From: Candidatus Bathyarchaeota archaeon
GTDB taxonomy: Archaea; Thermoproteota; Bathyarchaeia; Bathyarchaeales; Bathycorpusculaceae
Reading direction: 5' to 3'
Assembly: GCA_026014545.1 (NCBI GenBank)
Contig: JAOZIH010000001.1
Span: 1 to 64,000 of the forward strand
Length of the DNA: 64,000 nucleotides
Below, piece after piece: positions 11,601 to 24,187 of this stretch. A program made the translations under genes and the position numbers. A model generated the notes under the pieces. The model saw only the letters and a list, made by a program, of their open reading frames with translations, ran no database searches and was not told the DNA's origin. Position 1 is the first letter of the stretch, and every line of letters begins with the position of its first letter.

Positions 11601-11625
11601 TGTATACGAAAGCATCAACAAAACA
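11601..11625 (+). repeat. Dispersed motif, copy A
   Basis: Reads TGTATAC-GA-AAGCATCAACAAAACA. It lies between nnr (start 11495, minus strand) and the RAM gene (stop 11699, minus strand), 106-130 bases before the nnr start. It is one of five near-identical copies in the window. Confidence 0.75.
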
Positions 11626-11698
11626 CCCTTTTCCGTAGCTTTACGCGCTGCGGAGCTCTGCCTAAAGCACGTTTAGAGGCGCCTATGCTTTATGCGGC

Positions 11699-11977
11699 TT
11701 ATTTTGTATTTGCACGATTGCGTTTCCCTCTGTAGGCCCTAGATACAATCATGGTAGAGGTTACCAGAACGTTTGGTACGGCGCGCATCTTTTCCGATAC
11801 GAACTCTTCCAGCATGCTCAAATCCTGCGCCTCGATTTTTGCAACCACATCATATTCACCGAAGATGATGTCGGCTTGCAGCACCTCATCAAACTCAACC
11901 AGCTTTTGACATACTTCCCTTTCGGCTCCCGAATTAACTTTGAATAAAACGTAGGCTAAGACAGGCATATTTTTCAC
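11699..11977 (-). CDS. Stand-alone Lrp/AsnC ligand-binding (RAM) domain protein
   Basis: A 92-residue RAM-domain protein without a helix-turn-helix. The pattern VLAYVLFKVNSGAEREVCQKL, then ADIIFGEYDVVAKIEA, then NVLVTSTMIV follows the ferredoxin-like effector domain of Lrp proteins. A basic tail (RAYRGKRNRANTK) is extra. It is similar in layout to the protein at 1895-2128 and is oriented like nnr, which lies 200 bases downstream. The effector is unknown; a link to the neighbouring NAD-metabolism genes is speculative. Confidence 0.85.
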   Translation of the reverse strand: MKNMPVLAYVLFKVNSGAEREVCQKLVEFDEVLQADIIFGEYDVVAKIEAQDLSMLEEFVSEKMRAVPNVLVTSTMIVSRAYRGKRNRANTK

Positions 11978-12125
11978 CGTACCTTTTTAGTTCAGTATCC
12001 CTTAATTACTTTTCCATGCGCTGCCTACACAAGGATTTTTGGAAAAACATTTATTCTCTGCTTAGCCCATATTTGTAACAGGCGCTGATAATTATTTGAT
12101 TGAACCTTGTTTAGGTGAACCTTGC

Positions 12126-12848
12126 TTGAAGAAAGACTTTAGCGTAAAAAGCACGGATGCGCTTATAATCGTTGATGTTCAAAATGACTTTTGCTCTGGC
12201 GGTGCCTTACCTGTTCCAGACGGAGATCAGGTAGTTCCCGTGCTTAATGACTACATAAAAATCTTCAAGAAAACAAATGCGCCCCTTGTAGCCACAAGAG
12301 ACTGGCACCCGCCAAACCATATATCTTTCAAAGCTCAAGGAGGCCCATGGCCGCCTCACTGCATTCAAGATACTGAAGGCGCTAAATTTCACTCTGACTT
12401 GAAGCTTCCCGACGCAGCCATCATCATCTCCAAGGCTACTGATCCGCTTAAAGAGGCTTATTCAGGCTTTGACGGCACCAAACTTGCAGACGTGCTTAAC
12501 AAGGCGGGTGTTACAAGGGTTTTTGTGGGTGGTTTAGCAACCGATTACTGCGTCAAAAACACGGTGCTTGATGCACGTAAGTTGGGTTTCGCAACCGTGC
12601 TGCTATTGGATGCTGTTCGTGGAATTAACGTGAAGCCCGGCGACGTAGAGGCTGCCATCGCTGAGATGCTTCGAAACGGTGCTGAGCAAGCCACCTTAGA
12701 TGACTTTCCAGAAACCATTGAGCTTCCGCCAGCGGGAGATTCTGACACTGAGGTTTTAGCGAAGAAACCATTGATTAAAGTTGCTACGAAAAAGAAGGCG
12801 CGCATGCGTCCTCGTGGCAAATATAAAAGAGTGCGCACTGAGCAGTAA
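12126..12848 (+). CDS. pncA: Nicotinamidase (isochorismatase-like hydrolase)
   Basis: This enzyme hydrolyses nicotinamide to nicotinate and ammonia in NAD salvage. Numbered from the upstream TTG at 12096, the catalytic triad is D27 (VDVQNDF), K113 (ISKATDP) and C152 (LATDYCV). The metal-binding TRDWHPPNH motif has D69, H71 and H75. The start at TTG 12126 is preferred because GGTGA lies 7 bases before it. Past the catalytic domain there is an unusual ~40-residue tail ending in a strongly basic segment (KVATKKKARMRPRGKYKR), which most nicotinamidases lack. nnr, another NAD-related gene, lies nearby. Confidence 0.92.
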   Translation: MKKDFSVKSTDALIIVDVQNDFCSGGALPVPDGDQVVPVLNDYIKIFKKTNAPLVATRDWHPPNHISFKAQGGPWPPHCIQDTEGAKFHSDLKLPDAAIIISKATDPLKEAYSGFDGTKLADVLNKAGVTRVFVGGLATDYCVKNTVLDARKLGFATVLLLDAVRGINVKPGDVEAAIAEMLRNGAEQATLDDFPETIELPPAGDSDTEVLAKKPLIKVATKKKARMRPRGKYKRVRTEQ

Positions 12849-13359
12849 CAATTGCAGGTTTAGGTCAGCAAAAGTTAACGTGCCCCTCACTTTCTTCGCT
12901 TCTTTTTACTAGATTATGGTCCGAAGGCAGGTTTTTATTCGAATTTTAACGAAGCTTATATATACATGAAATTTGCAACAGAAAATTCATAGGTGAAGTC
13001 TCATTCCGTTGCAGTTTTTATGGTAAAATGCGCCGAAGAACGCGTATTAGTGGCAGGTAATTGTTAGTTTTTTGAATTAGTCGTTGCGTTTTCACGGAAG
13101 AATTGCTGTTATTGTTCTTTTATGGCTTGCGAAAAAATTTCGAATAGCCACTTTTTACAATAAAAAGCTAAAATTTATGGGACTTAGGCTAAAAATTAAC
13201 TTTAAAAAGTTAAAATAGCATGGTGAATAGCTTTCTGGGCAGTATACGAAACACGATTTTTTTTTAAAAAAAAAAAATTGTCTCCAGCGGCAAGTCCTGT
13301 CAAAAGTTAGTCGTGAATAAAGTTGCTTGGAAATGCGCTAAGAAAAGTGGATTATGCGT
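12849..13359. other. 510-base AT-rich intergenic region with a strong unassigned TATA box
   Basis: No convincing gene is visible. CTTATATATAC at 12955-12965 is one of the best TATA boxes of the window. It is followed after about 30 bases by AGGTGA and a possible 15-25 codon frame (ATG 13020 or GTG 12994, stop 13066-13068), too short to support. Further on there is a run of about ten T followed by twelve A near 13257-13278. It could hold a small transcript or simply be spacer DNA. Confidence 0.4.
12955..12965 (+). promoter_or_regulatory. Orphan TATA box
   Basis: CTTATATATAC with no annotated gene for several hundred bases downstream on this strand. The box is equally good as a generic AT-rich sequence, so promoter activity is unproven. 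Confidence 0.35.
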
Positions 13360-13776
13360 TCACGTTTCGCCCATGACTTGAATAAGGACTGTGCGCTTAC
13401 GCGGGTAAACGTCTGTTTCTACGAAAAGCAAAGATTGCCAAGTTCCAAACTCCACATGTCCGTCAATTACAGGCAGCGTTTTATCTGGCGGTAAAAGAAC
13501 TGATCGCAGGTGCGCGTAAGCATTAGACGGATGCTGATAAGCGCCTTGCACGGGCACTATTTTTTCAAGGAAGGCTTTGATGTCGTTGAGCAAGCCATAG
13601 TCGTTTTCTGTCAAGATTAGTATGCCCGTTGCATGTGGCGCAAAGACATGGACCAAGCCATTTCGGATGCCTGCGCTGGACACGGCTTCTTGAACTTTGT
13701 CCGTTAAATCTATGAACTCGATAGCACCCTTTGTGGAGAAACTATAGTGCTTGTTAACAACTTTAAAGCTTGACAT
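13360..13776 (-). CDS. YjbQ/UPF0047 family protein
   Basis: A 138-residue single-domain protein of the UPF0047 (YjbQ) family. It shows the conserved VFAPHATGILILTEN motif and the C-terminal GTWQSLLFVETDVYPRKRTVLIQVMG, with the His and Glu residues that form the family's presumed active or metal site. Some bacterial members show weak thiamine-phosphate synthase activity, but the physiological role is unresolved. ATG start at 13776. A degenerate copy of the dispersed motif lies about 90-110 bases upstream. Confidence 0.92.
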   Translation of the reverse strand: MSSFKVVNKHYSFSTKGAIEFIDLTDKVQEAVSSAGIRNGLVHVFAPHATGILILTENDYGLLNDIKAFLEKIVPVQGAYQHPSNAYAHLRSVLLPPDKTLPVIDGHVEFGTWQSLLFVETDVYPRKRTVLIQVMGET

Positions 13777-13863
13777 GACAGCTTCCCATAGTTATCTGTG
13801 CGGGGCTATTCAAATTTTTTTCTGCGCTGCCCAGTGCATTGCAAATTTGGCTGGGTTTGTGTT

Positions 13864-13888
13864 ATTTTTGTCTATGCTTTTGTATACG
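13864..13888 (-). repeat. Dispersed motif, degenerate copy G
   Basis: The plus strand reads ATTTTTGTCTATGC, then TTTTGTATACG. It matches the consensus except in the CATCAAC core, where CATAGAC is found. It lies upstream of the yjbQ-like gene. Confidence 0.5.
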
Positions 13889-13956
13889 CCTTCTTTATAG
13901 AGGATGCTTCGTGTGCATCAGTGATGGCTAATTGAATAGGTAATATTTATGCAACT

Positions 13957-13978
13957 AGAATCACTGAGCGATGATTCT
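13957..13978. other. Hairpin in the yjbQ-lonB spacer
   Basis: AGAATCA and TGATTCT are perfect 7-base complements with an 8-base loop. Two further small stems follow at 14003-14036 (GGGCTG-TTTT-CAGCCC, then CCCTT-CAG-AAGGG) just beyond the lonB stop. They could be part of the lonB 3' end or a small RNA. Confidence 0.35.
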
Positions 13979-14002
13979 GCAATGTTGCTGTAAGCGAAAA
14001 AT

Positions 14003-14036
14003 GGGCTGTTTTCAGCCCCCCTTCAGAAGGGAAGTT
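14003..14036 (-). terminator. Tandem small hairpins at the lonB 3' end
   Basis: GGGCTG-TTTT-CAGCCC is directly followed by CCCTT-CAG-AAGGG, ending 10 bases from the lonB stop codon. No strong T-run follows on the minus strand, so a processing or stability role is as likely as termination. Confidence 0.3.
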
Positions 14037-14045
14037 TCGTCGGCA

Positions 14046-16304
14046 TCAAGGTTTACGCTTGTATTTTTGAACAGGGATTTGGATAACTTGCTGCTCAACA
14101 AGGCATTCTTTTAAGTAGTCATCTAATGTGGCTGCAGGCACCACTTCAATAGTGTAATCTCGCGGATCGATCGAGTGCAGGTAGTTTTTCTGTGGAATAA
14201 CTACTTTCTTGAAGCCCCATGCCTCGGCAGCTTTAATCTTCTCGTGAACTCCACCAACCGCGGTGATCTGTATAGTGCCGCTGACACTTAGGTTTATTTC
14301 GCCGGTAACAGCCACATCCTGCCGTATCAGTTTCCCTTCGATCAGCGAGCATAAGAGAATGGCCATTGTTACGCCTGCGGAAGGACCATCAACGCCGTAG
14401 GACTGGGCGAAGTCAATGTGCGTTAAGTAATCCTGCGCTATGTCTACACCGTATTTTTGAATGATGACACTTCTCACTTTGGCTATGCTGTCCGAGATGA
14501 AGCTTTGACCCTTCGCAACTCCGGTCACTTTGTAATAGCCCTTAAGCGGCTGATCACGCGGCAGCTCGCTTTTCTTAACTAGCTGCGCTTTCACACTAAG
14601 CACATTACCTGTCATTTCGCCGCTGTAGGGGTCATGAACTACTGCCAAGCCGTGAATCTGCCCGAGTTTTACGCCTTCAGGATTTATTTCCAAAAGCTTG
14701 CCCCGCTCGTGCATTTCATGCTCCAGCAGCTGCTTCTGAATAGTTTTGCAGTGCTCATTTATCGCTTCCAAAACGTGACGCCGCTCAACGACCTTGCAGT
14801 TCTCATTCATAGCCAAAGTTGCTGCAGTCTTAATTATGGAGATTAAAGGTCTAAATCGTGTAGTAAGCGCATCCCGCTTGTTGCTTCGCCTTCGGCCTTC
14901 CTCAACTATTTCTATGCATGCCTCTCTATCGAAAGGTATCAAGTTGAAACGCTTGACCTCTTGCGCTATGAACTGAACGTACTTGCGCCTATTCTCTAGC
15001 GTGTTGGGCATGTCGTTGTTCATGCGCACCACTTTGCCGTAGCCGTAGAAGCGATCCATAAGTGCCGGGTGAATCTGGCTTATGCTGTCAAAGTTTCCAG
15101 CGCCTACCAAGAAGGTTATGGCTGGCACAGGCTCTGTGGACACAGCCATCGCCGAAGTGCCCCCGCCATGCCACCTGTCCCGCAGGGTTATGGGCAGCTG
15201 CCCATCTTCCAAAACAGTGAGCAGCGTAATTGCCTCTTCTTGATCTAAGTTTTTGATTTCGTCAATATACAAGATGCCCAACGACGCTTTGTGCACGTCT
15301 CCTGCGGTTACGCGCTGATGCTCAGGCGTTCCTAACCCGCCAGTCTGAAACGGATCCCACGCTACTGACCCAAAGAGTTGTGCGCTTCTATGGCCCGTGG
15401 CGTCTACAAATGGCGCTTGCTCTGAACTGTTGTCTACTATAAGTTTTGGGACGTCAGATTGCTGTGCGCCTCCGATGCCGCGGAGGTTAGCTAATCCGCC
15501 TATGCGTGAGAACCACCAGATGAAGACGCTGAAGAAGATGAGGCTGCCGCCGGGAATAAACGTTAAGGGCACAATGTTTAGGAAGCGGTCAACAAGGTAA
15601 GCTGAGAAATTGTTGTTGTATAATTCCTGCCAGGATGTGCCTCCAAGCGAAACGCCGCCGGCGTTCCATGCTTGCCAAGCGTCAACCATAAAGTATAAGC
15701 CTAATCCCAGGAGGAGGACACCTAATGTAAGCATAAGCGCTTGCACTATGCGAAGACCGACTTTCGTGGCGAACTTGCGCTTAAGCTCTTTAAGCTGCTC
15801 TTTTTGCTGTATCTTTTTGCCTTCTCCAGCTTTGTGGATAGATATGCGAGGCTGGCTGGGCATTGCAGGATTTTTCCATGAGAGGACATCGAAAAGTTTT
15901 ATGCCGTTTTCCTTGTAAACCTGCGTCAGTTTCTCCGCCAAGGCTCTGCCGAGAAGCGACTTGCCTGTTCCTGGGTCGCCCAAAAGTAGCAAGTAAGGGC
16001 CTGGGCTGATCATGGTTTTTGCTGAGGGCTTGTGCTCTTCGGGTTTACTCCAGTATGTGTACCACTGCGTCTGCTCTAGATGCTTAAGCTTGTGCACCCA
16101 CTCGTTTAGGCAGAGAAAACTCTCGTTAAGGGCCTGCTCTTGGCCTATAATCCAGCTGATCATGTTGTCGTCTACTGGGAAACCTTCGGTTGTTTTGAAT
16201 TTGCCCCAGTTCCAGCGGACCTTCACGGTTCTGCCCTGAACAGTGCGGCTGATCGTTTCAGTGTCTGTGCCGAAATATTCAAAAGACACGCCTTCTCCTC
16301 CCAT
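14046..16304 (-). CDS. lonB: Membrane-bound ATP-dependent protease LonB
   Basis: Archaeal Lon, the main membrane-tethered AAA+ protease for protein quality control. The Walker A motif GDPGTGKS is at 109-116. Two TM segments (about 178-205 and 250-270) are inserted between Walker A and Walker B (ILYIDEIKNL), as in archaeal LonB. The S16 protease domain has catalytic Ser642 (DGPSAG) and Lys689 (GGVHEKIKAA). The ATG at 16304 has its nearest SD (AAGGAGAG) too far upstream, about 14 bases. The codons after it contain GGGAGGAG placed 5 bases before an in-frame GTG at 16289, so the true start may be that GTG. Confidence 0.96.
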   Translation of the reverse strand: MGGEGVSFEYFGTDTETISRTVQGRTVKVRWNWGKFKTTEGFPVDDNMISWIIGQEQALNESFLCLNEWVHKLKHLEQTQWYTYWSKPEEHKPSAKTMISPGPYLLLLGDPGTGKSLLGRALAEKLTQVYKENGIKLFDVLSWKNPAMPSQPRISIHKAGEGKKIQQKEQLKELKRKFATKVGLRIVQALMLTLGVLLLGLGLYFMVDAWQAWNAGGVSLGGTSWQELYNNNFSAYLVDRFLNIVPLTFIPGGSLIFFSVFIWWFSRIGGLANLRGIGGAQQSDVPKLIVDNSSEQAPFVDATGHRSAQLFGSVAWDPFQTGGLGTPEHQRVTAGDVHKASLGILYIDEIKNLDQEEAITLLTVLEDGQLPITLRDRWHGGGTSAMAVSTEPVPAITFLVGAGNFDSISQIHPALMDRFYGYGKVVRMNNDMPNTLENRRKYVQFIAQEVKRFNLIPFDREACIEIVEEGRRRSNKRDALTTRFRPLISIIKTAATLAMNENCKVVERRHVLEAINEHCKTIQKQLLEHEMHERGKLLEINPEGVKLGQIHGLAVVHDPYSGEMTGNVLSVKAQLVKKSELPRDQPLKGYYKVTGVAKGQSFISDSIAKVRSVIIQKYGVDIAQDYLTHIDFAQSYGVDGPSAGVTMAILLCSLIEGKLIRQDVAVTGEINLSVSGTIQITAVGGVHEKIKAAEAWGFKKVVIPQKNYLHSIDPRDYTIEVVPAATLDDYLKECLVEQQVIQIPVQKYKRKP

Positions 16305-16929
16305 ATTGCTACCAGTCTCTCCTTTTTAATCAATTAAAGAACTTATTTCCAAACTGGCAATATTCAAAAAACCGTACATAACCCTTGCAAAATCACCTGA
16401 AAGCAAACGGATTTTCGAACAAACTTTTTAGGAAAATCCGCTAATTTTAAAGCCTATTTAATTACAAAGGCTAAATTATGAGGTTGTATGTTTTCGAATA
16501 GCCAGCGCTGCAGAAACAGGCGTATTTTTTGTTTAAAACGCAGAAATGGAAAAGCCAAAAATGAGCCTAAAACAGCCAAAGCGCTTTATTTCTGTCCTTT
16601 CATCTTCTTGTTTTATGCTAATCTATGGAGAAAACCGTGGCCTCATATAAAGACTGACGAAAATCTCCATGCGACGCCTAAGCGACTTCACTTCGAGCCT
16701 ACTTCGAGCGGATTCTCATGTTCACAGGCGCTTTGCTGCTGTCAACTGAGTTTTGTGTGGTGACTGCATGTGTGGCTAATGGCCTTCAAGCGCAAGTGGA
16801 TAGTCAACTGCTGTTAGGTGCTTCGCTGATTGTTCTGTTAAAGGAGGCAGGCTTTGTCTGCTGCGATTCTCCGCGCTAAATCAAGTACCGCGTGATGGTT
16901 TTGTCTATGCGCTGTTGCGTGGTTAGCGT

Positions 16930-16955
16930 GTTTTCGGTTGATGTATTTGTATACA
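16930..16955 (-). repeat. Dispersed motif, degenerate copy F
   Basis: The plus strand reads GTTTTCGGTTGATGTATT, then TGTATACA. It keeps GTTGATG and TGTATACA but has CG inserted or changed in the T-rich arm. It lies in the lonB-hjc spacer and is not adjacent to a start codon. Confidence 0.55.
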
Positions 16956-17183
16956 GCGTGCTTACCGCCGGTGTTTTCTGTAGTGTGAGTTGTTGTGGTG
17001 GTGCCAAAAAAAGGCGTTTTGCGGCTTATTTGGGATGAGCGGGCACATTTGCATTGCTTGGTGTAGGCTAAAACGCTGTGATTTTTGAGATGTTTACGGA
17101 GTGATTTGCATATTCGGTGGATATGGTTGTATTGGTATTACTTGGAATGCATCATTTTCACCAGCATGCTCCAGAGAGAAAAA

Positions 17184-17207
17184 TGTATACAGAAGCATCA
17201 ACAACAC
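17184..17207 (+). repeat. Dispersed motif, copy B (upstream of hjc promoter)
   Basis: Reads TGTATAC-AG-AAGCATCAACAACAC and ends about 12 bases before the TATA box of hjc. In archaea this is a position from which an activator could act. Confidence 0.75.
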
Positions 17208-17218
17208 TTCGCATAATT

Positions 17219-17228
17219 CTTTATATTT
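17219..17228 (+). promoter_or_regulatory. TATA box of hjc
   Basis: CTTTATATTT lies about 35-43 bases before the GTG start at 17262, which would give a leader of about 10 bases. Confidence 0.5.
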
Positions 17229-17261
17229 GCTACACTACTACTGCTGCAGAGGGCAAAAGCC

Positions 17262-17681
17262 GTGATAAAGGACGCAGACAGAATTAAACTTCGCCGATGG
17301 CGCAAACGCGGCTTCTACAGCGAAAACGCGCTTGTGAAGCTACTACAAAAAAACGGTTACAGCGCCGTGCGCATTCCAGTCAGCAACCCCAGCTTAAGCC
17401 CACTACCAGACATCATCGCCCGAAAAGGCGAACACGTCTACGCCTTCGAGGTAAAGAATGCGGATTACTACGCGTATTTCCCAAAGCAGCAGATTGACAA
17501 ACTCTTCAGGTTCCTCAATGAGCTTATGCCCGGCAGCAACGAGCAGAAGCACGCTGTGATCGCGGCGCACTTGGGTAAAAAGTGGCTTTTCAGAGAGGTC
17601 AACTGGACAGACTGGGAGAGGGATAAATTACCAGAGAAAATCAGGATTCTTAAGCGAGACCGAGGAAATTTTACACTGTAG
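17262..17681 (+). CDS. hjc: Archaeal Holliday junction resolvase Hjc
   Basis: A dimeric endonuclease that cuts four-way DNA junctions in recombination and repair. It has the PD-(D/E)XK nuclease core with E21, D50 (LPDIIARKG) and E63-V-K65 (YAFEVKN), plus a Gln at about 77. The motif AVRIPVSNPSLSPLPDI is highly typical of Hjc. It has 139 residues and starts with GTG 34-43 bases after a TATA box. It lies immediately upstream of the ABC genes but is not obviously linked to them. Confidence 0.93.
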   Translation: MIKDADRIKLRRWRKRGFYSENALVKLLQKNGYSAVRIPVSNPSLSPLPDIIARKGEHVYAFEVKNADYYAYFPKQQIDKLFRFLNELMPGSNEQKHAVIAAHLGKKWLFREVNWTDWERDKLPEKIRILKRDRGNFTL

Positions 17682-17732
17682 CCGAAGTGTGCATCAACGA
17701 AGTTAATTGCATAAGGCATTATGGCCTAAAAG

Positions 17733-17743
17733 CATATTATAAC
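17733..17743 (+). promoter_or_regulatory. TATA box of the ABC transporter genes
   Basis: CATATTATAAC lies about 25-35 bases before the ATG at 17768, so the transcript may be leaderless or nearly so. This also supports 17768 over the upstream in-frame GTG at 17687. Confidence 0.5.
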
Positions 17744-17767
17744 TTCCGCACATTTTCTGATACAGCC

Positions 17768-18457
17768 ATGGAACCAAAAGAATTAGCTGTTTACTTGCGC
17801 GATTTATGTAAAGCTTATCAAATTGGCGATGTGGAAGTTGAAGTTCTAAGAGGCGTAAACCTATCTGTCACAAGAGGGCAATTTGTTGCCATTTGCGGCC
17901 CGTCGGGTTCGGGGAAAACCACGTTGCTCAACATTATCAGCGGCATAGACAAAGCAACAAGTGGGCAAGTAATAGTTTTAGGGCAGGACTTAGCTGTGCA
18001 AGATGAGGATTTTCTGGCGGAGTTCCGATGTAATAATGTGGGTTTCGTTTTTCAATCCTACAATCTCGTCTCAACTTTAACGGTAGCAGAGAATATAGCT
18101 TTTCCAATGGAGTGGCGCCGAAAGTCTGAAGTAGAAATAGAAAAACGCGTAGCTGAACTGTTGGATACCGTGGGGCTAAAGCATAGAGCGAATCATTTTC
18201 CCGCCCAACTAAGCGGTGGCGAGCAGCAACGTGTGGCGCTTGCTCGCGCTTTAGCTAACGATCCGCCATTGATTCTTGCTGATGAGCCTACTGGAAATTT
18301 GGATGCCAAGAACTCGCAGAAGATAACGCAGATGCTGCAGATGCTGAAGGCGCAAGGAAAAACAGTTATCGTAGCAACGCATGATCCTGAACTTGTGCGG
18401 TTATCCGACAAAGTTCTGCGCTTGGAAGAAGGCAGATTGGCGAGTTGTGATGAGTAA
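17768..18457 (+). CDS. ABC transporter ATP-binding protein, MacB/LolD type
   Basis: ATPase subunit of a FtsX/MacB-type exporter. Walker A GPSGSGKT is at 44-51, the Q-loop is in [11 protein letters not shown], the signature is [15 protein letters not shown], and Walker B is [12 protein letters not shown], a sequence characteristic of the LolD/MacB/FtsE group. From the ATG at 17768 it is 229 residues long, normal for the family; the frame extends back to 17687 but that part is not conserved-looking. The stop overlaps the start of the permease gene. Confidence 0.93.
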
Positions 18458-20300
18458 GGCTGCTTTTCCAGTAAATGATCTTCTGCGTAGAAAGTGGCAA
18501 ACGGGCTTGACTGTGGCTACTTTAACGTTGAGCGTTACCTCTACTTTTTTCTTGTTGCTCTTCAGCAGGCGAATGGGCGTTGGGCTGGCATCCGCAGATG
18601 ATGTGCTTACTCACGGTTTGTCCACGGTTTTCTCGCAGTTCATAATATTCATTGGCATTCTGATTTTCGCGGTAGGCGCCGTGATAACTTCATTCATAGT
18701 GTTTTTAATGATGAAACAAAGAACACGCGATTTCGGCTTAATCAAGGCTGCTGGCTGTCCAAATGGGCTTGTTTTTGCATACTTCCTAACCGAGCTACTA
18801 ACAATAACCTTCGTAAGCTGCGCTTTAGGTGTTACATTCGCCTATGCATTGGACAGCGCTGTTGCCCACATTTTCCAGTTACAAGCATATCCAAAATTGC
18901 CTGACTTGTGGCTTGCCCTTTTAGTATTCGCCGCTTTTTTCGCTCTTGCTTTAATATTTGGCGTGAAACCCCTATTGGAAGCAGCGCGTTTATCACCAAT
19001 AAAGGCGTTGTCGCCAATTCAATACTTCGGTATAAGCGCTGACCGCAAACATAAGCCCTTATCGAAGTTTGTTTTAACTCTGCGAATTGCCTCAAGAAGC
19101 TTATTCAGGCGACAGGCGGCAAGCATCCGCGTTGTCCTACTACTTTCAATAGTTTTTATGCTGCTTACGGTGGCAGTAGCTGGAAGCATAATTGCCAACG
19201 ACACCACGAAGTTATGGATTAAAAGCGCCATCGGCGAAGACACCATCATAATAGCGCATAACAGCATGTGCACTCAGTACCGTCTGCTTCTGTCAAAGTT
19301 CTCTGGCGCCACAGAAAATGGCGATTTTGACTACCTAAACGTGCAGTTCGCCATACCTGATGCTTTAATTCAGCGGTTAAAGGCCACATCGGCCGTGGCG
19401 GCTGTTGATGCACGTCTAATCTGTAAGGCACATGTGTATGAGGTAAGGAATTTCACAATTGATCCAGAAACTTTGGCAACTATTCCAGTTGGCGATAACC
19501 GCGAAGGCGACTCGTTAATAGTGGGTGTTGACCCGGAAAACGTGATAACCGCTTGGACAATCAATGGAAGATTTTTAGCTACCGCCGACGCTGGCGCAGC
19601 TGTAATCGGAGATTCTCTAGCGCAAACAATGTTTTCGCAGCCTCTGGTTCAAAGTGCTCGCTTATACAACAAGACTTTTAGCGTGGTAGGCGTCTGTGTT
19701 GACCCAATTAATAACGGCCGCGTCATTTACGTTCCCCTCAAGCAACTACAAAACATCACAAGCATGCCTAACGTCAACCTTCTGCTTGTTAAAATTGCGC
19801 CCTCCGCTGACCACGAAGTCGCTTTAGCGCAGATAAAAAGGGAAATTCTCAGCTTAACTCCCGATTTCGCCATAATGGAATTGAATAATGTGCTTCAAGA
19901 GTCGATTAATTTTCTGGGTTCCGCATGGCTAACTGTCATGCTTCTGCCCTTGTTCACGCTAGCGTCTGCGGCATTATGCTTGGTTGGCTATATAATGCTG
20001 GCTGTGGATGAACAGCGGCAAGAATTCGCGATTTTACGCGCCATAGGCGTGAAACCGAATACGATTATTGCCATTCTCGCGGTTCAAAGCATTGTCGTTT
20101 TGCTTTCAAGTTTTGCAGTTGGACTCTCTTTGGGCATAATAACAACAGTGCTGATTCTAGTGCCCAACCCCGTGGTAACCAGCCTAACCATATTGGAAGT
20201 TGCCTTATGGCTATTGGTGGCGTTAACAGTCATGCTTCTTCTGAGTCTTTATCCAGCCATTCGGTTTGCGAAAACGCCTCTTTTAAAAATCTTAACCTAA
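18450..20300 (+). CDS. ABC transporter permease, FtsX/MacB family
   Basis: Membrane partner of the preceding ATPase. The ATG at 18450 overlaps the ATPase stop by 8 bases, indicating coupled translation. Of about 616 residues, one TM helix lies near the N-terminus and three form a first FtsX-like bundle (about 60-180). A large extracellular domain (about 250-480) and a second three-helix bundle (about 500-610) containing the FtsX-typical [15 protein letters not shown] follow. Such mechanotransmission-type exporters move lipoproteins, peptides or drugs; the substrate here is unknown. Its 3' end overlaps the convergent nuclease gene by 9 bases. Confidence 0.9.
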
Positions 20301-21011
20301 ATGTGTAAATTCCTTCAGAAAGTACTTTAGCGACCCCGTGTAGGCCGGTAACTGGCTTAAAAAATCTTGCAGCTGAAGCACGGGGACAATGGGCACGTTG
20401 TCATAAAACTTGAAGCGGGCTTGCGTCAGCGACAAAACAACGGGCACAAACTTTGCCTTATCCCATTTCGTACATCTAAGCTCTAAGTTGATGTTTGGCG
20501 ATGAGTCAGCTAGCGCTCTTGCTCGTTGCACTTGCGCCTCGATAATGCGCTTTAAAGCGGAAGGCGCCACGCGGCTCCAGTGCTTGCAGTCTATGCATAC
20601 AACGAGTGGCTTCTTGCATCCAACCACGTCTATTTCCCATCTTCTGCCTTCATGTTTGAAATGCAGATTTTCAATAACACTATAGCCGTTTCTTTCCAAA
20701 GCAGCCGCTGCCATATCTTCAAATTCTTGCCAACGTAAAAACGCGCTGACACGCTCCACATCTGCGCCTATGGATATAGCCCTGACGGCCAGCCTAAAAC
20801 GCTTATCCCGTGGTATCTTGATAGCGCCGCTCTGCAAATTAAGTAATTTTTCATTTTGAAATTTTTCCAGCAAATCCCTTATAACATCCATGGGAAGCCT
20901 GATGACCTTATTGACATCTTCAATTAAAACATCGCCACTCTGCGTCAACCTCAGCAAAGAAATTAACACTTCTCTCTCAACAGACATAGTTAAACCCGCA
21001 GAAAAATGCAT
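20292..21011 (-). CDS. Mrr-like PD-(D/E)XK nuclease with N-terminal winged helix
   Basis: The N-terminal part (about 10-70) has the pattern of a winged helix. The rest is an Mrr/restriction-endonuclease-like fold with a Glu in EFEDMAAAALERNGY (~96-98), D128 in RRWEIDVVG and D141-C-K143 in CIDCKHW, in place of the more usual ExK. Related archaeal proteins are annotated as restriction endonuclease-like, but no methyltransferase is adjacent. The start may be ATG 21011 or ATG 20987 (MSVEREV). TTTAAA near 21049-21054 is a possible TATA box, with motif copy C upstream. Function in repair or defence is inference. Confidence 0.8.
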   Translation of the reverse strand: MHFSAGLTMSVEREVLISLLRLTQSGDVLIEDVNKVIRLPMDVIRDLLEKFQNEKLLNLQSGAIKIPRDKRFRLAVRAISIGADVERVSAFLRWQEFEDMAAAALERNGYSVIENLHFKHEGRRWEIDVVGCKKPLVVCIDCKHWSRVAPSALKRIIEAQVQRARALADSSPNINLELRCTKWDKAKFVPVVLSLTQARFKFYDNVPIVPVLQLQDFLSQLPAYTGSLKYFLKEFTHLG

Positions 21012-21078
21012 AAATCTGTTAACAACACATCATTCTCGCAGAACACTTTAAACATGCTCGCAGGAGCCTCTGCAAACT

Positions 21079-21103
21079 TGTATACGGAAGCATCAACAAA
21101 ACA
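21079..21103 (+). repeat. Dispersed motif, copy C (upstream of the nuclease gene)
   Basis: Reads TGTATAC-GG-AAGCATCAACAAAACA, identical to copy A except for one base in the two-base spacer. It lies about 25 bases upstream of the possible TATA box of the minus-strand nuclease gene. Confidence 0.75.
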
Positions 21104-21271
21104 CACTTTCTTGCATCTCCAGCAAACAGTTTGCGCTACCAAGCGATAACCCACACCAAGTTATCACTAATAACCTTTGACCCCTTTAAAGTCTCCTTAA
21201 CCGTTTTTACAGGTCCTATGCTGAATGCAGGGATCTCTTATAGGCTACTTCGCATATCGTAACGCCGATAA

Positions 21272-21366
21272 TCGAATGGTTCCATAATTTTTAGATAATT
21301 TCGTTGCATTTTCCCTTAATTCAAACAGTTATTTTTAGCTTTTTAATGTAAAATGTGACCATTCGA
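21272..21366. repeat. Inverted repeat pair in the nuclease-mobA spacer
   Basis: TCGAATGGT (21272-21280) and ACCATTCGA (21358-21366) are perfect complements 77 bases apart; with flanking bases 12 of 13 positions match. The space between is AT-rich and carries a repeated GATAATTT. It could be a large stem or a pair of protein-binding sites. Confidence 0.4.
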
Positions 21367-21662
21367 TAATTTTTCGTAACCCAAAAAGCAAGCAAAATCA
21401 AAATTTTTCCAACCTCAAGATACTACAAGCGCCCAAAACAATCCCACTTATGAAATACAATGTAAGGCTCCATTCTAAACCTGTGATTTCAGTCTATCTC
21501 ATGCGCGTTTTTCACCTATTTTGCCTCTACAAAGTGCGAAAAACAGCGCCAAACACCAAAGATTGCCCCTTTGCCTAGCTCTCATTGTCCATGTATTTAT
21601 AAGGTTCGCTCTTTTTCGACAAATTCGCAGAGACTGCACCAGCCGGAGCGCTTGCTAAAGAA

Positions 21663-21686
21663 GTTTTGTTGATGCTTTCGTACACA
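21663..21686 (-). repeat. Dispersed motif, copy D
   Basis: The plus strand reads GTTTTGTTGATGCTT-TC-GTACACA, with TACAC replacing TATAC. It lies about 65 bases downstream of a plus-strand TATA box and 20 bases before the hairpin at 21705-21719, and 90 bases beyond the mobA stop. Confidence 0.7.
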
Positions 21687-21773
21687 AAGGACAATTTTTA
21701 ACGTAAGGGGACTCCCCTTTAGGATTGTATGAAGGAGGTGTAAGGAAAAAGAAGCAGGTCTTTCAAAAACCAC

Positions 21774-22421
21774 CTACAAAATGCGTTTTAAAGGTCTCAC
21801 TTGCTTTCTCAGCGCAACCATAGCAGCAGCCTTTTTTAAGTCTGCACGCGTGTTTATGTTAAAAAATGTGCGAAGCTCCGGATCCAACTGCTGAACGACC
21901 AGTGTGGAAACATAGCGTACACCACGAAGCTTCTCAATCATAGCGCGCATATTTAATTTGCCTTCTGCAACGGCAGCCTTTGCGGCTTCAAGCGCTAGCG
22001 TGGTGCAATAAACTGCGTGTAGTGGCTCTACATTTCCATTAGGCCATCTTGGAATAACAGCCGCCTTGCCAATGCACAGTTCAAAAAGTAGGGAAATAAC
22101 TTCGCTTGAGATAAAAGGCATATCAAAAGGCAAAATTAGCGAATATAGTCCATGAGCAACGCTCAAGCCCGTTAAAGTACCAATCAGCGGACTATTTGAC
22201 TCGCAAACATCCACAGCGAAACTTACATCCGAATCAACAAGGCGTGCATACTCGGCAACACGCTCCTGGGAGCTAGTAACCACGATTATCTCGTCGACAA
22301 TTGGGCGGACTTTGTCTACAACGTGTTTAATCAACGGTTTGCCATTAAGCTCTAAAACGCCCTTGTCTTGGCCGAATCTGCTGGAAGCACCGCCAGCTAG
22401 CACAATAGCCGTTCTGTCCAC
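21774..22421 (-). CDS. mobA: Molybdenum cofactor guanylyltransferase MobA-like
   Basis: This enzyme attaches GMP to molybdopterin (Mo or W form) to make the dinucleotide cofactor. It is a nucleotidyltransferase with N-terminal LAGGASSRFGQDKGVLEL, where the Arg and Lys bind the phosphates. The metal-binding Asp is in ILPFDMPFIS, and EPLHAVY is typical of MobA. It is 215 residues long with a GTG start at 22421, which lies about 25 bases after a TATA box, so translation is probably leaderless. A dispersed motif copy lies further upstream. No other Mo-cofactor gene is in the window. Confidence 0.9.
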   Translation of the reverse strand: MDRTAIVLAGGASSRFGQDKGVLELNGKPLIKHVVDKVRPIVDEIIVVTSSQERVAEYARLVDSDVSFAVDVCESNSPLIGTLTGLSVAHGLYSLILPFDMPFISSEVISLLFELCIGKAAVIPRWPNGNVEPLHAVYCTTLALEAAKAAVAEGKLNMRAMIEKLRGVRYVSTLVVQQLDPELRTFFNINTRADLKKAAAMVALRKQVRPLKRIL

Positions 22422-22440
22422 TGCTTTTTCTCCGCTTACG

Positions 22441-22452
22441 CATTTTTATACA
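22441..22452 (-). promoter_or_regulatory. TATA box of mobA
   Basis: TGTATAAAAATG on the minus strand, centred about 25 bases before the GTG start at 22421. Motif copy E lies about 35 bases further upstream. Confidence 0.5.
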
Positions 22453-22484
22453 GTGCTCAAGCGTTCTATAAGTGTTTGCGTTAA

Positions 22485-22508
22485 GTTTTGTTGATGCTTT
22501 TGTATACA
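22485..22508 (-). repeat. Dispersed motif, copy E (upstream of mobA promoter)
   Basis: On the minus strand it reads TGTATAC-AA-AAGCATCAACAAAAC. It lies upstream of the mobA TATA box, between mobA and the ParA-like gene. Confidence 0.75.
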
Positions 22509-22534: not shown

Positions 22535-23314
22535 CTACTTAATATTGTCGCTCTCTATTTTTTTGGCCAGGTCTTCTAAGATTTTGCTGAATGGGTGATC
22601 TGGCTTATCCTGTGCAAATATCAAGTTTCCTTCAGCGCGCAGAATCTCGCAGAAGCAGGGCACGACAGCTAATAGTGGAAAGTGATACACCACTTTGACT
22701 TTGTCACGCATTTCATCCATCTTCGCCTTTGACGAGGCATCAAGCACTTTGTTAATCACTAAGCCTGTCTTCTTTTCGAATAACTCGTAGATTTCATGTA
22801 GCATGCGCCGTGTTCCATTTACGTCGGAGCGGTCTCCAGTGGTTGCCACAAGCACTAGATCTGCTGCTACTATTGCATTTATTGATGAATACTGTAGACC
22901 TGGACTGGTGTCAAAAACCAGATAGTCGAATCCTTGCTCTTTCATCAGCGTGTTCCTCAGCGATAGGAGTCTTCCTAAGGCGCGCATTTCCCACTTTCTA
23001 TCCTTCGCGCAAATATCACGGATCGCTTCAGTTGTGGGGTTTGCAAGGCAAACGAAAAATTTGTCTTTCATTTGAAGCTTGCTGCTTAGATCAATAAGGA
23101 CTTTGTTTATGTCGCATGAACCGTTTAGGTAATCGTTCAGCCAGTATTCTGTGCTTTCCACTTTGAGTATAGCGAAGAGGCTGGGCGCTCGAAAATCCAA
23201 GTCGAAGAGACAAACTTTGTTTCCATGTTTGGCTAAAGTGGCAGCTAAATTAACAGATAGAAGAGTCTTTCCTGTGCCGCCTTTATACGAGTGTATGGCT
23301 ATGATTTTACTCAT
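22535..23314 (-). CDS. ParA/MinD-family ATPase
   Basis: Deviant Walker A ATPase: KGGTGKT at residues 11-17 counted from the ATG at 23314, a second Lys-like region, and DYLVFDTSPGLQ as the Walker A' motif. Such proteins position DNA, chemotaxis arrays or complexes, or regulate their partners. GTG 23326 overlaps the previous stop, but GGTGA placed 7 bases before ATG 23314 makes that ATG the likelier start. It is co-transcribed with the winged-helix gene at 23323-23700. No ParB-like gene is nearby, so a plasmid-type partition system is unlikely; the winged-helix protein may be its partner. Confidence 0.88.
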   Translation of the reverse strand: MSKIIAIHSYKGGTGKTLLSVNLAATLAKHGNKVCLFDLDFRAPSLFAILKVESTEYWLNDYLNGSCDINKVLIDLSSKLQMKDKFFVCLANPTTEAIRDICAKDRKWEMRALGRLLSLRNTLMKEQGFDYLVFDTSPGLQYSSINAIVAADLVLVATTGDRSDVNGTRRMLHEIYELFEKKTGLVINKVLDASSKAKMDEMRDKVKVVYHFPLLAVVPCFCEILRAEGNLIFAQDKPDHPFSKILEDLAKKIESDNIK

Positions 23315-23322
23315 CTGTTCTT

Positions 23323-23700
23323 TCACCTTGATTCGTGAACTTCTTTGTCAATATAGAAGTAGGCTTTTCTGCCCTTGCGCTCTTTTTTGAGATAACCCAT
23401 AATTACTAGCTGATTAAGATATGCGCTTTCTACTGCGCGGGCTCTGTTTGTTTGCTGAGCAACTTCGTCTGCGGTAGCCCTTCCGAACCTGCAGATTGTC
23501 ATAGCGGTTTTTCGAAGGTGATCCGGCATTGAGAGTAGAGTCATTACATCTAGTGAGGCATCGGGAACAGTTGGAGTTTCTTTTTTACCGTGCTTTTGTA
23601 GTTCTATCATTACTTCCATTTTTTCATTAAGTTTCTCAAGGTTTTCTTTTATTTTTTCAAGGATTTGCAGAGGTTTTTTGCTCAGCATTTCTTCTTTCAT
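23323..23700 (-). CDS. Winged-helix DNA-binding protein with N-terminal coiled coil
   Basis: A 125-residue protein. Residues ~10-40 form a likely coiled coil (LEKIKENLEKLNEKMEVMIEL). Residues ~55-120 form a MarR-like winged helix (TICRFGRATADEVAQQTNRARAVESAYLNQL, then a wing in KKERKGRKAYFYI). It overlaps the ParA-like gene and lies upstream of it in one transcript. A TATA-like TTTAATAAATA lies near 23750-23760. It may be the DNA-binding partner of the ATPase or an autoregulator of the operon. Confidence 0.78.
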   Translation of the reverse strand: MKEEMLSKKPLQILEKIKENLEKLNEKMEVMIELQKHGKKETPTVPDASLDVMTLLSMPDHLRKTAMTICRFGRATADEVAQQTNRARAVESAYLNQLVIMGYLKKERKGRKAYFYIDKEVHESR

Positions 23701-23893: not shown

Positions 23894-24187
23894 CTAGTAA
23901 GGAGTCGGCATCTGGTTTCTCGCTTCTTCAACGATAGGCAAGACTTGCTTCAGCTCTCTGAAGTACTTAAGCACCGTTATGCCTCGCTGAGTGATCGCAT
24001 AAACCACACGTCGTTTCCCAATAGTCCTTTCTTCCACCAGTCCTTGCTTCATCAGGAAATCCAGATACTCCTTCAGTACACTGCAATTAACGTTAGCCTT
24101 ATACATTACATGCGTTAACTTAAGCGGGCCTCGCTGAGCTAATACCTTTAGGATGTCAATATACATCTCAAGTTTGGAACGTCTCAT
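23894..24187 (-). CDS. Winged-helix transcription regulator, ArnR1-like (HTH_45)
   Basis: A 97-residue regulator of the archaeal HTH_45 type. It begins RRSKLEMYIDILKVL, continues with GPLKLTHVMYKANVNCSVLKEYLDFLMKQGLVE as the helix-turn-helix and ends the wing with KRRVVYAITQRGITVLKYF. The same architecture is seen at 52809-53162. GAGG lies 7 bases before the ATG and a clear TATA box (24221-24230) lies about 35 bases upstream. Target unknown. Confidence 0.85.
   Translation of the reverse strand: MRRSKLEMYIDILKVLAQRGPLKLTHVMYKANVNCSVLKEYLDFLMKQGLVEERTIGKRRVVYAITQRGITVLKYFRELKQVLPIVEEARNQMPTPY

Follow-up and report, generated by a model that had tools for sequence, protein, structure and literature searches.

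The stretch of DNA analysed here, referred to as the window, comprises the first 64,000 nucleotides of contig JAOZIH010000001.1 from the Candidatus Bathyarchaeota archaeon assembly GCA_026014545.1 (C33:1-64000 in a genome of 41 contigs), and between 11.6 and 22.5 kb it carries seven copies of a long asymmetric motif, TGTATACNNAAGCATCAACAA. Together with a second sequence, named element B, these copies appear to build a mirror-symmetric array of ~10 kb, and in four near-complete genomes of relatives this array lies close to the point opposite orc1. The reading that we favour, to which a probability of roughly 60% is assigned, is that this is a sequence-defined replication-terminus or chromosome-organising array found in one order of Bathyarchaeia and bound by a putative sequence-specific protein.

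Searching the window for TGTATACNNAAGCATCAACAA with up to three mismatches returned six matches, at 11601(+), 13868(-), 17184(+), 21079(+), 21666(-) and 22488(-), versus a mean of 0.01 expected from the dinucleotide-shuffled window. The seventh copy is more degenerate (16935-16955(-), four mismatches) and is considered real because it is the conserved left partner of the 17184 copy in related genomes; a degenerate copy near 16930 had already been listed in an earlier reading made from the letters and open reading frames (ORFs), hereafter the sequence-only reading. When the whole genome was scanned (1.86 Mb, 41 contigs), matches with 0-1 mismatch appeared exclusively in this 11 kb interval, and the only ones beyond it, on C23 and C34, have three mismatches and are chance-like; these results agree with the confinement of the motif to 11.6-22.5 kb that the sequence-only reading had described. 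The same holds for the placement of the window copies, which are all intergenic; most of the 89 sites checked across genomes are also intergenic, even if short and probably spurious ORFs are counted as genes. On the other hand, the length of 24-25 bases originally given to the motif was too short, since 184 distinct sites define ~31 informative positions (YGTATACRRAAGCATCAACMAAACAcAcwTT).

A search of related genomes at three mismatches, as the sequence-only reading had proposed, detected the motif in 51 of 61 relatives, where the copies are mostly clustered. Of 163 genomes from the window's order, 115 contain the exact 18-base core GNATACRRAAGCATCAAC, whereas all 94 genomes sampled elsewhere in the class lack it; a reversed-pattern control gave zero matches in all 257. 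Among the matches listed from a scan of 84,980 species genomes, almost all belong to Bathyarchaeia, including Ca. Bathycorpusculum; six scattered bacterial matches also occur among those listed, which is about the number expected by chance from the information content of the pattern. A chance frequency of copies and a loss of the sites in close relatives had been named beforehand as outcomes that would speak against the motif, and both tests came out in its favour. It is likely that the motif is a protein-binding site.

The core of the array is a conserved centre (coordinates are given in Table 1). In five families (f1, f2, f3, f4 and f6), at least 36 genomes have two motif copies placed back to back, the first on the minus and the second on the plus strand, 205-325 bp apart; in G004 one convergent pair was seen, with a distance of 346 bp. 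In family f1 the spacer of this pair includes the blocks TGGTGA, GTAATAC, TCACC, TTTAGCCTAC, ATAAG and a second TGGTGA at nearly fixed spacing, and the window's version of the pair is formed by 16935(-) and 17184(+). In the window, G001, G002 and G014 the pair is found beside the promoter of hjc. In G007, G009, G013, G031, G032 and G036 it stands inside a long intergenic spacer, with yjbQ and LonB each ~300-760 bp away; its inner structure is identical in type in both settings. From the constancy of this structure while the neighbouring genes change, it follows that a role as a promoter element is unlikely. The possibility that the centre encodes a structured non-coding RNA was rejected, given that an Rfam search of the inner region matched no family and no conserved RNA fold was detected in the core (consensus energy -0.5 kcal/mol); pairing is limited to the inverted motif arms. 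At four loci, half of a centre element (GTATTAC - TCACC - motif) is observed at secondary copies (L019 9298, L022 12562, L025 13085 and L026 12184), which would fit a duplication of the centre element inside the array.

Element B, TTTTTAACTTTTTATTGTAAAATGTGACCATTCGAnnnTTTTT, is a sequence of 43 bp that was found at 21332(+) in the spacer between the Mrr-like gene and mobA, a region of 39% G+C versus 47% in the window; G001 and G002 share its first 27 bp without any difference. Its mirror counterpart is located at 13132(-). A weight matrix made from 10 copies of the element revealed 13 further loci, mostly flanked by convergent motif copies; independent copies score 28-52 bits, and the best match in G007 reaches 20.0 bits versus 14.8 for the reversed control. 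In the loci where both copies are visible (the window, G002, G014 and G127), the left one is on the minus strand and the right one on the plus strand, so that the array reads > B < ... < centre > ... > B <. G007, G009, G013, G031 and G036 have neither strong copies of element B nor strong inward-pointing outer sites. Adjoining the left element B of the window there is a second, weaker B-like copy at 13190-13216(-), and both stand beside a repeated CCTAAGTCCCATAA.

The position of the array on the chromosome was established from relatives with more complete assemblies. In G127, a single contig of 2,733,033 bp, the array centre and the antipode of orc1 are 2.0 kb apart; in G048 and G067, of the same genus, the distance is 17 kb and 19 kb, and in G007, after joining its two contigs, 37 kb. 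The offset from the point opposite the origin thus amounts to 0.1-2.3% of the chromosome in these four near-complete genomes. In G128, with a genome of ~1.7 Mb, the array and orc1 are separated by 848.7 kb. Fisher's combination of the positions gives p 3e-5, which becomes 3e-4 once doubled because either of two orc paralogues could have been chosen. As in termini of the Ter/Tus type, several asymmetric sites are found opposite the origin, except in three single-contig metagenome-assembled genomes (MAGs) of low completeness. A separate observation is that the single-contig MAGs G065, G069, G070, G073-G075, G081, G082 and G154-G158 have a completeness of 62-92%, and two of them match "chromosome" records (CP070820 and CP070749); these may be scaffolded pseudo-chromosomes and their gene order should be used with care.

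Composition skews support the location of both poles. Gene-corrected skews of G007 show a GC minimum at 1,088,247 and an AT maximum at 1,081,647, with orc1 at 1,080 kb, and in G127 the AT skew maximum is at 2,270,153, with orc1 at 2,271 kb. The cumulative GC skew at orc1 is a minimum in G007 and a maximum in G127, while the AT skew is a maximum in both; from the opposite GC extremes, it follows that the sign of the GC skew varies within the family. Upstream of orc1 in G127 (C1:2272316-2273125) there is an intergenic region of 810 bp in which CACACCCC...TTCTACTGGA repeats surround DNA that is very rich in AT; these repeats resemble the origin recognition boxes (ORB) of archaea, and this region is a likely canonical origin for the order. 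Polarized words chosen on the G007 origin alone and applied to G127 gave a minimum at 900.9-905.9 kb, the array being at 901-909 kb; with the array masked the minimum is at 878-893 kb. From both minima it was concluded that the G127 array is located in, or some tens of kb from, the replichore switch. A skew vertex falling exactly on the central site (905.8 kb) had been considered and was withdrawn, since it was partly circular and masking of the array moves the vertex. Nothing convincing of the XerA/dif type, i.e., a single 28-bp inverted repeat of 11-6-11 structure at the terminus, was common to G007 and the terminus region of G127, and within or near the array one weak match to the bacterial dif consensus (G127 901,656) was no better than others, with nothing conserved.

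Outside the array, the orientation of the motif is uniform: on contigs bearing orc1, 40 of 40 sites point toward this gene. One group of sites, orthologous by position, lies ~10-17 kb upstream of orc1, adjoining a MazG-like gene where the flanks were read, and the remaining ones, which reach out to 302 kb on one side of the gene and 189 kb on its other side, form by position ~10 groups. In G048, the four arm sites that could be placed on the left replichore, together with two weak sites of the right replichore, obey the same orc1-ward rule, which is also matched by the centre pair and the inner copies of the array.

Table 1. Components of the array in the window, with coordinates and strand.
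Feature	Position	Strand	Remarks
Motif copy, left outer site	11601..11624	+	Upstream of nnr; points to the centre
Element B, left copy (TTTTTAACTTTTTATTGTAAAATGTGACCATTCGAnnnTTTTT)	13132..13174	-	Between motifs 11601+ and 13868-; 52.2 bits, used in training
Motif copy, left inner site, slightly degenerate	13865..13888	-	Upstream of yjbQ
Centre divergent pair, left half	16935..16955	-	Conserved together with the + site in at least 36 genomes
Centre element, inner region	16956..17183	.	Blocks TGGTGA, GTAATAC, TCACC, TTTAGCCTAC, ATAAG at fixed spacing, read on the minus strand
Centre divergent pair, right half	17184..17207	+	~55 bp before hjc in the window
Motif copy, right inner site	21079..21102	+	Before the Mrr-like nuclease gene; first copy of the convergent pair that flanks element B
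Element B, right copy	21332..21374	+	AT-rich Mrr-mobA intergenic stretch; 59.5 bits, used in training
Motif copy	21663..21686	-	Second copy of the convergent pair that flanks element B
Motif copy, right outer site	22485..22508	-	Between mobA and the ParA-like gene

In the mechanism that we propose, a dedicated DNA-binding protein would recognise the motif, the forks leaving the orc1-linked origin would meet around the divergent centre pair, and the bound protein may act as a polar boundary or anchor that aids fork convergence, unlinking or segregation of the terminus, by analogy with Ter/Tus, RTP and MatP/matS of bacteria. An anchor that organises the terminus, or a boundary acting on both forks, would fit equally well. 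A bolder version, namely that a dedicated protein-DNA array polarly halts or locks converging archaeal forks (MCM/CMG-type) besides organising the terminus, and that it evolved independently in one order of Bathyarchaeia, is put forward tentatively and with more doubt than confidence.

Several observations weigh against the terminus reading. The genome of the window is fragmented, and the chromosomal placement rests on the near-complete genomes of its relatives; moreover, in G065, G073 and G075, single-contig MAGs of 62-88% completeness, the pair is located away from the antipode, where unreliable assemblies are suspected as the cause. The best V-shaped split of the G127 polarized words with the array masked falls at 820-865 kb, and in G007 the skew switch is not a point but a broad plateau from 220 to 560 kb, with the array at 300 kb inside it. 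Regarding polarity, 20 of the 40 sites correspond to the one shared site upstream of orc1, and nearly all 40 come from two genera. Finally, in arrays bearing element B the outer copies (~4.6-9 kb out) point inward, contrary to the rule followed by the arm sites; a simple trap does not predict such an orientation, so the notion of a pure fork trap is weakened.

The sequence-only reading had suggested that the motif could be bound by an activator or a repressor. That a protein binds it is likely, as stated above; that the sites form the regulon of a transcription factor, with operators before hjc, Mrr, mobA, nnr and yjbQ and before scattered genes such as Hel308 and MazG (a set reminiscent of DNA repair), is unlikely. 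Many copies do lie 40-140 bp upstream of a start codon, and the arm copies of G127 stand in front of Hel308-like and MazG-like genes. Nevertheless, the centre element is often 300-760 bp from any start and keeps its sequence while its neighbours change, dispersed copies are frequently 8-35 bp behind the 3' ends of genes, and the genes that flank them, named here from their sequence without a database search, have no shared theme (the 3' end of an S19 gene, GDH, ThiD, PGK and a radical-SAM gene). A regulon would not predict the uniform polarity of the arm sites toward orc1 either, and no conserved placement at the promoters of a coherent set of genes was found. Archaea often have several replication origins, and the motif could likewise be the box of another initiator, with the convergent pairs around the AT-rich element B as unwinding sites. 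This would agree with the resemblance of archaeal origins to inverted motif pairs around AT-rich DNA (39% G+C) and with the second Orc paralogue present in most genomes of the order. However, the sign of the G127 skew at the array is opposite to that at orc1, most genes to the right of the G127 array are oriented toward it, in G000, G007 and G048 the second orc gene is located away from the array, and the origin at orc1 carries different, ORB-like repeats. The marks of an archaeal origin (ORB, linkage to orc1/cdc6 and an origin-type skew extremum) were thus not recovered at the array, and a second origin is also regarded as unlikely.

A centromere, in which the motif copies would be parS-like sites for the neighbouring operon of a ParA-like ATPase and a winged-helix protein, wHTH1 (22535-23700), is considered quite improbable. 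In the window, as in many relatives, these two genes are direct neighbours of the array, and archaeal SegB sites are known to cluster around segAB (PMC12284271); yet in G007, G036, G014 and G048 the array stays with yjbQ/LonB/hjc while ParA-wHTH1 is ~50-95 kb away, and four f9 genomes that were searched have motif copies but neither wHTH1 nor a close orthologue of wHTH45, the other neighbouring DNA-binding protein. Motif copies also occur in most of genus g45. In addition, SegB sites are short palindromes, 83% of them intragenic (PMC12284271), whereas the motif is long, asymmetric and intergenic. Synteny and phyletic pattern are therefore against ParA-wHTH1 as the binder and the motif as its centromere. 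A mobile repeat, e.g., of the type of miniature inverted-repeat transposable elements, spread by transposition, would account for near-identical dispersed copies in both orientations, and the sequence-only reading had mentioned a small mobile or recombination-related repeat. This explanation is extremely improbable and its mobile form is taken as excluded because the copies are vertically conserved at orthologous places, across genera and families and with the same internal architecture, and are absent outside the order; their flanks showed no shared terminal repeats, and copies at non-homologous places with target duplications were not found.

As for the neighbouring genes themselves, the ParA-like ATPase gene of the window (22535-23700(-)) overlaps by 4 bases the gene of the small protein, whose N-terminus is charged and probably coiled, which ends in a winged helix and is conserved with 65-95% identity across most of the order. 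The two are a candidate for an undescribed partition module. In G042, G049, G058 and G004 the wHTH1 match contains one in-frame stop codon that perhaps reflects decay, a sequencing error or a stop at the end of the match. Next to them, at 23894-24187(-), a protein of 97 residues of the HTH_45 type (wHTH45) is encoded, with orthologues of 69-92% identity in f1, f2, f6, f7 and one f4 genome, and distant paralogues in f3, f5 and f9. It was rejected as the binder, given that f3, f5, f9 and G046 have the motif but only paralogue-level matches of 38-49%. Neither ParA-wHTH1 nor wHTH45 thus follows the motif across genomes.

According to a review, archaea lack defined termination sites and no Ter/Tus system is known in them (PMC7776575); our literature searches, limited to open-access sources on archaeal termination sites and on origins or termini of Bathyarchaeia, did not turn up any account of an array of this kind. 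The presence of a conserved mirror-symmetric array opposite the origin in an archaeal order would mean that archaea, too, have evolved sequence-marked termini; it would open termination by the archaeal, eukaryote-like replisome to a direct test, and would offer a handle for finding a new terminus-binding protein.

Among known systems, the array shares with Ter/Tus of E. coli and Ter/RTP of B. subtilis the clustering at the terminus of asymmetric sites of ~20-30 bp, with the innermost pair inverted and further arm sites of one polarity relative to fork movement. It differs from them in that its outer cluster copies point the "wrong" way and no Tus or RTP relative was identified, in the archaeal replisome, and in the presence of a second element (B) and fixed inner blocks. 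With MatP/matS, which organises the terminus macrodomain of E. coli, it has in common a multi-copy sequence located mainly at the terminus and, presumably, a single binding protein. However, the matS palindrome is short and its copies extend across hundreds of kb, in contrast to the asymmetric motif packed into ~10 kb.

Within the archaea, polarized 4-mers and dif sites (28 bp, 11-6-11) have been described in Thermococcales (PMC2958812), and these resemble the array in their terminus location and in a polarity that reverses at origin and terminus. One of the polarized words, GTTG (PMC2958812), is even part of the complement of the motif, although these words, unlike the motif, are frequent 4-mers. 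In Sulfolobales, the SegB sites are 13-bp palindromes, mostly intragenic and near segAB and the origin (PMC12284271); as the array, they are archaeal chromosome-maintenance sites that cluster near a gene of the ParA family, but the motif is 24-31 bp long, asymmetric, intergenic, located opposite the origin and not tied to ParA. Neither the Thermococcales nor the Sulfolobales sites share the sequence, the length, the symmetry or the placement of the array. With ORB, finally, the motif shares the form of long asymmetric boxes in inverted pairs, while the sequence is different and the ORB-like repeats are located at orc1, at the opposite pole of the chromosome.

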